Both the position numbers and the translations under genes were made by a program. DNA of 64,000 nucleotides from NCBI RefSeq assembly GCF_014706615.1, contig NZ_CP054877.1, forward strand, positions 124,001 through 188,000, given 5' to 3'. This DNA is from Candidatus Vesicomyosocius sp. SY067_SCS001. Its GTDB lineage: Bacteria > Pseudomonadota > Gammaproteobacteria > PS1 > Pseudothioglobaceae. This document shows, in pieces, positions 2,579 to 5,275 of this stretch. The stretch's first letter is position 1. Each line of letters starts with the position of its first letter. Below the pieces are notes generated by a model. That model made no database searches and was not told where the DNA came from. It worked only from the letters and a program-made list of their open reading frames with translations.

Positions 2579-3796
2579 TTATTGACTCATAAGTAATTCA
2601 ATATCGTTGATTTCTTTAGCGAGAGATTTAGTTAGTACTGTATTTCCTGATGTTGTTACTAATATAATGTCTTCAATTCTTACACCAATGTTGTGATAAA
2701 TTGGATTAATTTTATCATTTTTACGTATATAAATACCAGGTTCAATAGTGGTTATCATGCCAGCTACAAATTTTTTGTGATGACCATTTTTTTTGTATTG
2801 ACCCACATCATGTACATCAAGACCAAGCCAGTGTCCTGTACTATGCATATAAAACTGCGATAAGCTGTCACCTATTTGCAATATACCAAGACTAATTAAA
2901 CCTTGTTTGATTGTATCAGTTGCGACTTTATGAGGTTTGTTGATTTTTATACCAGGTTTGATGGTATCAATAGCATCAATTTGAGCATTAAGAACAATTT
3001 GATAAATTTGTTTTTGTGCAGAAGAAAATTGACCATTAACTGGGAAAGTTCGTGTGATATCTGAGGCGTAGCAGTCAACTTCAGCACCAGCGTCAATCAA
3101 AATTAAATCACCTTTATTGAGTTTTTTGTTATTTTCTGTATAGTGTAGTAAACAAGAGTTTACTCCTGCTGCAACAATGGGAGTGTAGGCATGTTGAGCA
3201 TTATTTTTGGTAAAACATCCGTCAAAAATACTTTGTACTTCAAATTCAAACATATCTGGTTTGATAGTTTGCATCGCTAATTGATGTGCTTTGATTGAGA
3301 TATTGGCTGCTTTTTGCATGGTGCTTATTTCAAGTTTGTCCTTAATAAGGCGCATCTCATGTAAAGTTGGGAGAAATGATTTTAGTTTATGGTTTAATAG
3401 AAGGCGCTCAATATCATTATCTATTTGATAATTTGTGGTATCAAAGTAAACTTGATTATTCAATATTAATTGAGGTATTTTTTCTCTTAACAAGTCTATA
3501 GAAAAAGCATTATCTGATTTTAAAAAATTAGATGCATTATCAATTCCTAGACGTTTTTCACCCCAGATTTCACATATTTTGTCTTTAGGGCGTAAAAATA
3601 TTGTGTAGTTATTTCTAGAAAAAATTGCTAGTGCTTTGGGCTCTTGTAATCCAGTTAGATAGTAAAAATCACTATGTACCCGAAATGGGTAATTAACATC
3701 ACCAGAACGATTTTGCTCAGAATTACTACTTATAATAACTATTGCATTGTTATCCAGCTGGTTTAGCAGTGACAGTCTTCTTTTTTGATGTATCAT
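2579..3796 (-). CDS. pepP: Xaa-Pro aminopeptidase (proline aminopeptidase P II)
   Basis: A dinuclear metallopeptidase of the M24B pita-bread family that removes N-terminal residues preceding proline. The 405-aa product is somewhat shorter than the roughly 440 aa of E. coli PepP. It has the N-terminal creatinase-like domain (residues about 1-150) and the C-terminal catalytic domain. The metal ligands are visible in order: two aspartates in LIDAGAEVDCYASDITR, the histidine in HSTGHWLGLDVHDVG, and the glutamates in TIEPGIYI and RIEDIILVT. It is the first gene of a pepP-trpD-orn-ispE minus-strand run. Confidence 0.93.
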   Translation of the reverse strand: MIHQKRRLSLLNQLDNNAIVIISSNSEQNRSGDVNYPFRVHSDFYYLTGLQEPKALAIFSRNNYTIFLRPKDKICEIWGEKRLGIDNASNFLKSDNAFSIDLLREKIPQLILNNQVYFDTTNYQIDNDIERLLLNHKLKSFLPTLHEMRLIKDKLEISTMQKAANISIKAHQLAMQTIKPDMFEFEVQSIFDGCFTKNNAQHAYTPIVAAGVNSCLLHYTENNKKLNKGDLILIDAGAEVDCYASDITRTFPVNGQFSSAQKQIYQIVLNAQIDAIDTIKPGIKINKPHKVATDTIKQGLISLGILQIGDSLSQFYMHSTGHWLGLDVHDVGQYKKNGHHKKFVAGMITTIEPGIYIRKNDKINPIYHNIGVRIEDIILVTTSGNTVLTKSLAKEINDIELLMSQ

Positions 3797-3879
3797 TTTA
3801 TTAAATAAGCTTAATTATTACCCATAATTAATTATATTATAAGAATACCATGAAACATGTATGATTGTAGCAAAATATC

Positions 3880-4214
3880 TCTTTAAAAATTAATAAGAAA
3901 TTGGTACTTGATGAGTATGCATCAAGTCATTTGGCAAAAGTATTGTGATTTTTACAAGGGCAAGAGATTACTTTATTTAATGGTGATAGTAGGAATTATT
4001 TAGAGACGATTGTGCGAGTAAAAAACTATTGTGAGGTTGAAATACATAGATGTACTCACAATAATTCAGAGTTTCAGTTAAATATTACTTTGGTTCAAGG
4101 TATTACCAACAATAAATAGTAAATGTAAATTAACAAGGAGCTCAAAGTTTGTTATTAGGCCAGAGAATATTAATAGCTGAAACCGCTTCGTTAGCAACTA
4201 TTGCTAATATGTAG
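3880..4214 (+). pseudogene. rsmE: rsmE remnant (16S rRNA m3U1498 methyltransferase), internally deleted
   Basis: Intact RsmE is about 240 aa. Plus-strand translation from about 3880 gives KKLVLDEYASSHLAKVL, then an in-frame TGA where the family has Arg, then FLQGQEITLFNGDSRNYLE, and later FQLNITLVQGITNNK and a stop at 4117-4119. These match the N-terminal PUA-like domain and the start of the SPOUT domain. In the same region, 4149-4211 encodes LLLGQRILIAETASLATIAN and a stop, which matches the extreme C-terminus with its LGxRILRxETA motif. The roughly 120 central codons, including the S-adenosylmethionine knot, are gone. Both ends are recognisable but there is no function. Confidence 0.85.
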
Positions 4215-4217
4215 TTA

Positions 4218-4709
4218 TTATGTGGTGGTTAATACATTTAATGCTTTTTGAATAGGTTTTAATACATTTATAAGTTTTTTACGAATAGCAGAACCTGTTA
4301 AATGGTTTGCTGAAATAGTGCTAATGACTAAACGTTCACTTACACCTGCTAATAGCATTCTAGCAAAGAGCTTTTCTCTTTCATCTTTAATATCATAAAC
4401 TACAACATTAGCTTGGTTAGTAATATCTACAATAGATTCTTTGAGAGTTATTGAGGGATGATATAGATATTGTCCGAGTACATCTAGTGTACGATATAAA
4501 ATAGTTTCTTGATTGATTTTTTTTAAAATATTAATTGTTGTTTTTAACAGTAATTGTGTTTGTTTATCTGAAATAATTTGTAAGTCTTTATGTCTGAAGT
4601 TAAATGATATTATGCTAATATCAGTATGAATCTCAAAGTAAATATCTTTGAGATTCATACGTTCAATAAAACCAACTAAAAATGCTGTTTTTTTTGACCT
4701 TGTTTCCAC
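4218..4709 (-). CDS. dsrS: DsrS-like protein, C-terminal fragment after frameshift
   Basis: A 163-aa frame whose natural reading begins at an A8 tract. The residues after the tract, TAFLVGFIERMNLKDIYFE, continue the preceding 199-aa frame if one extra A is supplied. Together the halves give about 360 aa, the size I remember for DsrS, a cytoplasmic accessory protein of the reverse dissimilatory sulfite reductase locus in sulfur oxidisers. The assignment rests on remembered similarity in the N-terminal half. Translation from the internal ATG at 4709 is formally possible but has no clear ribosome site. It may be a recent pseudogene or one rescued by slippage. Confidence 0.55.
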   Translation of the reverse strand: METRSKKTAFLVGFIERMNLKDIYFEIHTDISIISFNFRHKDLQIISDKQTQLLLKTTINILKKINQETILYRTLDVLGQYLYHPSITLKESIVDITNQANVVVYDIKDEREKLFARMLLAGVSERLVISTISANHLTGSAIRKKLINVLKPIQKALNVLTTT

Positions 4710-5275
4710 AATTTAGCTTTTTCTTTTTTGTTGATCAGGTCTTTTTGTAATATCAAATTAGTGGTATCGATTAGTTGTTCTATATTATGTATAAAGGGTA
4801 ATAATTCTAGTAAATATTTGGCGATATTTTTACCAATATAGGTGTTAATAATAAAATCTTTAGTGAGTAACAAACGTCCGATTTCAGCTTGATTAGCAGT
4901 ATTAGTAGCGCACCACCAAGTTAGTTTGAGCAAATTTTTATCAAATTTGATTTCATTTGATACTGCTATAACAGCTTCAACTTCGCCCAGTTTGAGTAGT
5001 AATGAAAGGTTTGATGATGTTACTTGTCCTATTTTTGACCAGTGCTTTAAATATGATAGATATTTTCCATTCATTGTTCCCATAACTTGATTGATAAGAA
5101 GTTTTTTAACTTCTTTGATATATATGTCACTATTACTTGTTTTGCTTAAATCAATAATTTGTTCTCTAAATTGTGTGTTAAGTCCAATAACTAGTAGTTT
5201 ATAAGTATCAATACGAATCGCGATCGAAGTCTTAATAAGAACATTTAGTTTAAGAATGTCTTCAGTGTTTAGCAT
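4676..5275 (-). CDS. dsrS: DsrS-like protein, N-terminal fragment before frameshift
   Basis: A 199-aa frame starting MLNTEDILKLNVLIKTSIAI. It includes a middle section (YLKHWSKIGQV, LLLKLGEVEAVIAV, LTWWCATNTANQAEIGRLL) that resembles DsrS of purple and other sulfur bacteria, where DsrS supports oxidation of stored sulfur. It ends with WKQGQKKQHF and a stop just past the A8 tract at 4688-4695. Adding one A converts the end to QKKTAFLVGFIER and joins the C-terminal fragment. No other dsr gene lies in the window. I am fairly sure the two frames were one gene and less sure of the name. Confidence 0.55.
   Translation of the reverse strand: MLNTEDILKLNVLIKTSIAIRIDTYKLLVIGLNTQFREQIIDLSKTSNSDIYIKEVKKLLINQVMGTMNGKYLSYLKHWSKIGQVTSSNLSLLLKLGEVEAVIAVSNEIKFDKNLLKLTWWCATNTANQAEIGRLLLTKDFIINTYIGKNIAKYLLELLPFIHNIEQLIDTTNLILQKDLINKKEKAKLWKQGQKKQHF
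4688..4695 (-). other. A8 homopolymer at the dsrS-like frameshift
   Basis: Eight consecutive T on the plus strand (A8 in the mRNA) lie exactly where the two halves of the dsrS-like gene change frame. Nine A would make one continuous frame. Such tracts are known sites of both replication slippage and RNA-polymerase slippage in AT-rich endosymbionts. Confidence 0.8.

Follow-up and report, generated by a model that had tools for sequence, protein, structure and literature searches.

The window analysed here is a stretch of 64,000 bases (124001-188000) of the genome of Candidatus Vesicomyosocius sp. SY067_SCS001 (G000), which consists of one contig of 1,032,764 bp. On the minus strand of the window, two reading frames of 199 and 163 aa overlap at a run of eight A's of the coding strand (A8, 4688-4695), just as an earlier note on this DNA had claimed. 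Specifically, the 199-aa frame (4676-5275) matches the N-terminal part of the intact DsrS homologue found in a related symbiont (G001) and ends at a TAG located four codons past the A8 tract. The 163-aa frame (4218-4709), which lies in the -1 frame and has a GTG start within the overlap, matches the C-terminal part of the intact protein.

At the position of the tract, G001 carries AAAAGAAAA, Candidatus Vesicomyosocius sp. Agig_15_S12 (G008) carries A9, and the more distant intact relatives show an interrupted run. Among the tract lengths compared, nine (or six) A's gave a single open frame, whereas 5, 7, 8, 10 and 11 A's did not. The joining of the two frames by a ninth A, proposed in the same note, is therefore borne out; the length of the joined product is 352 aa, and not about 360 aa. 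Since the homologue of G001 is likewise one open frame of 352 aa and G008 has A9, the observation of a split gene goes beyond chance. One base is missing at this homopolymer with respect to the open relatives, so that translation would end after 199 of the 352 residues. In the window's genome the full-length frame of DsrS (about 350-390 aa) is thus broken at A8, and this single indel in an A run is its only lesion, the rest of the frame being open. Judged from its sequence, the locus is a dsrS pseudogene and not a gene for a working DsrS.

Two further features lie in or next to the gene. A perfect 15-bp inverted repeat with a 7-nt loop (4624-4660, minus strand; fold z-score -5.1) starts 27 nt past the A8 tract. 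It sits in an insertion in dsrS (15 nt in the alignment), specific to the subclade formed by the window's genome, G001 and G008, and is imperfect in the sisters. A spacing of 27 nt between tract and hairpin is too far for a typical frameshift stimulator, and we discarded such a role for the repeat on account of this spacing and of the imperfect sister copies. In addition, the plus strand carries a remnant of rsmE (16S rRNA methyltransferase; 3783-4232, borders approximate), which overlaps the 3' end of dsrS, has lost 334 nt to a deletion and contains several stops. G001 has an intact homologue, which matches Pfam PF04452. This immediate neighbour of dsrS is likewise dead, and we counted it in favour of the pseudogene reading.

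Identity of the split gene and its genomic partners

Searches with the two halves and with the joined protein found no Pfam or NCBIfam family, weak matches to DUF6589 and DUF1940 being under cut-off and rejected, and phage records gave no match. By means of a profile of the intact relatives, homologues were detected in 79 out of 274 Gammaproteobacteria. A strong dsrA match was present in 75 of these 79 genomes, as against 19 of the 195 genomes without the homologue, the other 176 of the 195 being without both. In two genomes (G051 and G124, loci L150 and L157) the homologue lies directly after dsrA, B, E, F, H, C, M, K, L, J, O, P, N and R and thus occupies the S position, from which DsrS takes its name. 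This placement in complete dsr operons, together with the co-occurrence with dsrA, leads to the identification as DsrS. Taken together, synteny, profile homology and dsrA co-occurrence give good grounds for assigning the joined, predicted protein to DsrS, and bear out the resemblance suggested in the earlier note.

The homologues behave as in the reverse-Dsr sulfur oxidisers, including Allochromatium vinosum, in that they occupy the S position of dsrABEFHCMKLJOPNRS and track dsrA. Unlike in these organisms, the symbiont dsrS is frameshifted and remote from the dsr operon. The operon itself, from dsrA through dsrR, has all its frames open (823187-835669 of the contig) and lies ~0.7 Mb from dsrS along the contig, or 0.33 Mb in the opposite direction if the contig is circular. 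The structure of DsrS was modelled (L025, 8001-9038; pLDDT 87) and consists, as predicted, of a short N-terminal strand region and, after it, a helical repeat; its comparison with the PDB returned no match with E < 0.001, and the armadillo-like matches, weak and non-significant, gave no function. The A. vinosum genome paper calls the function of DsrS unresolved (PMC3368242).

In many Gammaproteobacteria, DsrS adjoins a MoxR-type AAA ATPase (Pfam AAA_5, MoxR-like) and a DUF2201/VWA protein (Pfam DUF2201, VWA-like, with a putative metallopeptidase domain). The ATPase was found in 80 of the 274 genomes, and 76 of these also have DsrS, so that it is present in 76 of the 79 DsrS genomes (odds ratio about 1200, shared ancestry ignored); it lies within 5 kb of DsrS in 36 out of 73 cases. 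When the genomes were divided according to dsrA, again with shared ancestry ignored, MoxR was present in 72 of 75 with both dsrA and DsrS, in 2 of 19 with dsrA and without DsrS, and in all 4 with DsrS and without dsrA. MoxR thus follows DsrS and not dsrA, a distribution which may hold a clue to what DsrS does. Pairs of a MoxR ATPase and a VWA protein exist, such as the CbbQ/CbbO rubisco activase. The present pair is similar in combining a MoxR-like AAA ATPase with a VWA-like protein, and differs in that the DUF2201 type is not that of CbbO and in that it is tied to DsrS through co-occurrence and synteny only.

Both partners are damaged in the window's genome. The MoxR gene (522,686-523,725 of the contig) is interrupted by an in-frame TGA as well as by a frameshift, and the DUF2201 gene (521,486-522,605) by two frameshifts. 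None of these lesions lies in a long A/T run, and both genes are intact in G001.

State of the three genes in relatives and selection on dsrS

As far as dsrS is concerned, the gene is intact in G001 (1,022,154 bp; 94% identity), which carries CAAAAGAAAAC at the tract, as well as in G004, G006, G007, G009, G010 and G011, where the run is interrupted by a G. In G008 the A9 tract is followed by a nonsense codon at residue 288 of dsrS, and in G005 (Pext_18_S21), G002 and G003 (1,160,782 bp) the gene contains many frameshifts. The single lesion of the window's genome recurs as such in no sister. A8 is likewise seen in G005, where a C next to it is lost and dsrS is damaged at many further points; the two genomes may have the one-base loss in common. 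Relatedness within the genus is poorly resolved. It has already been published that V. okutanii encodes dsrJNRS and that R. magnifica does not (PMC2642828). Candidatus Ruthia magnifica is a related clam symbiont that has lost the same gene, the window's genome differing in its single lesion and its earlier stage; the passages of that paper used here make no mention of a dsrS remnant or of the MoxR and DUF2201 partners.

Considering the three genes together, dsrS, MoxR and DUF2201 are all intact in six of the 12 genomes of the genus (G001, G004, G006, G007, G009 and G011) and all broken or missing in four (the window's genome, G002, G003 and G005). Of the remaining two, G008 is without a working dsrS or MoxR, the latter with a stop at codon 12, and G010 keeps dsrS, although its MoxR is lost to a stop at codon 41 and its DUF2201 is split. 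Over these 12 genomes, and with the tree ignored, loss of dsrS and loss of MoxR are associated (p 0.015).

Selection was assessed from the changes private to each of the window's genome, G001 and G008, with 124 intact genes (first 160 kb of G008) as reference. On the branch of the window's genome, dsrS has accumulated 14 synonymous and 23 nonsynonymous changes, with a nonsynonymous/synonymous ratio of 0.45. The ratio of dsrS amounts to 0.45, 0.39 and 0.31 in the window's genome, G001 and G008, respectively, compared to 0.157, 0.137 and 0.142 for the pooled 124 genes, and this excess is supported in each case (Fisher p 0.002, 0.009 and 0.03). Only one of the 113 testable genes on the window's own branch exceeds dsrS (0.46). 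Constraint on dsrS is therefore 2-3 times weaker than on its 124 intact neighbours, G001 with its open frame included. The raised ratio in G001 indicates that constraint had weakened before the frameshift.

When the two halves were considered separately on the same branch, the ratio was 0.28 for the 3' half (9 synonymous and 9 nonsynonymous changes) and 0.76 for the 5' half, on few changes. The ratio of the 3' half, together with the fact that both halves are otherwise open, suggests that the death of dsrS is recent or that some function is left. Among the changes is H324N, at a residue that is invariant in 25 relatives and that, among the three sisters, has been lost in the window's genome only; K37R and V318I are milder changes. 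A further point against the pseudogene reading is that, on the same branch, the ratios of MoxR (0.28) and DUF2201 (0.17) are not significantly raised.

Pseudogene, slippage rescue or artefact

All together, these data make it very probable that dsrS was recently inactivated and is now a pseudogene in this symbiont of a deep-sea vesicomyid clam, the genome of which is reduced in size. Parallel loss in relatives by varied lesions, relaxed constraint and loss of the functional partners are all found, and the plain pseudogene, mentioned in the earlier note as the alternative, proves to be the best reading. In particular, the damage to MoxR and DUF2201 is of a kind that slippage would not repair, which argues for an ordinary and fairly recent death of dsrS.

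The comparison of 876 ORFs of G001 of at least 100 aa with the window's genome showed just two, dsrS and one 135-aa ORF, that differ internally by one base, once, at an A/T run of at least 8, dsrS being the only sizeable gene split in this way. When genes split at A/T runs of at least 7 were looked for directly, dsrS was the only one returned; other candidates for a homopolymer split in this genome were rejected, as they corresponded to adjacent separate genes or to the end of a single gene. Conversely, the frame is kept at 202 internal A/T runs of at least 8, 35 of them of at least 9, in 747 clean genes. These in-frame runs, together with the lack of any other split gene, make it unlikely that homopolymer errors are widespread in the assembly, or that this genome tolerates slippage in the manner of Blochmannia.

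The main idea of the earlier note was that polymerase slippage might keep dsrS alive. In the form weighed here, the addition of an A by transcriptional slippage at A8, or alternatively -1 ribosomal frameshifting at A_AAA_AAA, would provide enough full-length DsrS for function. The sole lesion of an otherwise open gene falling exactly within A8, as well as the strong hairpin downstream, speak for it, and Blochmannia and Buchnera are reported or proposed cases of rescue by slippage (PMC3017870), where the situation is similar in that one A-tract indel interrupts an otherwise open frame of an AT-rich obligate symbiont. However, Blochmannia carries such frameshifts in 4-8 genes per genome, essential ones included, and the tracts counted were of 9 or more (PMC3017870), whereas here a tract of 8 affects one accessory gene, under relaxed constraint and with broken partners, and is not conserved among relatives. 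Moreover, the insertion rate grows exponentially as runs get longer, and not one restored frame came to light when the whole Buchnera transcriptome was surveyed (PMC5574713). The hairpin, as described above, lies 27 nt away and is imperfect in the sisters. Purifying selection over the whole gene at the level of intact genes would be expected of a rescued dsrS, and the observed ratio departs from it (0.45 versus 0.157, p 0.002), constraint being relaxed in the open-frame relative as well. For these reasons, and given partner lesions that slippage does not reach, the idea is not supported, and we see only a slim chance that slippage or frameshifting sustains DsrS function. Low-level transcriptional slippage could yield a trickle of full-length DsrS, and nothing here requires it.

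A slimmer chance still is left to an assembly or sequencing error, in which case the true genome would have A9 and an intact dsrS. Homopolymers are the classic site of such errors and the sister G008 does have A9; nevertheless, the frame is preserved at the 202 runs mentioned above, and just dsrS and the 135-aa ORF differ by a single internal base at such runs. In addition, dsrS is decaying in the sisters, and its partners in the same genome are broken by other kinds of lesion. As to gene fission, with the halves made as two polypeptides that assemble, the overlap of the GTG at 4709 with the end of the first frame would allow it, but a split that is conserved in no relative, a break that falls inside the predicted helical region and the relaxed constraint on dsrS leave it practically no credence.

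Decay of a proposed sulfur-oxidation module

Returning to dsrS as a recent pseudogene, selection on the gene was already relaxed in the subclade, replication slippage presumably removed one base from an A9 tract, and the A8 frameshift is the first visible lesion in the gene of the window's genome. Reductive evolution offers the simplest account. DsrS, MoxR and DUF2201 might act together in the reverse-Dsr pathway as a device with an accessory or maturation role, which an obligate symbiont could spare without giving up the other steps, and whose genes would decay separately, in an order that differs among host lineages. We lean towards the view that the DsrS protein, the MoxR-type AAA ATPase and the DUF2201/VWA protein constitute one reverse-Dsr module, perhaps dedicated to the ATP-driven maturation or reactivation of a Dsr protein, and that this module is being dismantled repeatedly in clam symbionts with the rest of the pathway kept, the A8 frameshift being one step.

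Other losses were noted as well. None of the Tol-Pal genes (TolQ, TolR, TolA-like, TolB, OmpA-type Pal and a TPR protein) has survived in this genome other than as a pseudogene or remnant (about 496457-497782 and 706175-708110 of the contig), and all are intact in G001 (492147-494674 and 702288-704264), so that another whole module has been lost together in the window's genome. The gene hda, a regulator of DnaA (256064-256756 of the contig), contains stops and a frameshift and is intact in G001.

In conclusion, the dsrS frameshift would be nothing unusual in the course of genome reduction and calls for caution before every A-tract frameshift of a symbiont is considered rescued. At the same time, the parallel decay of dsrS in sister symbionts picks out the MoxR ATPase and the DUF2201 protein as likely partners of DsrS.
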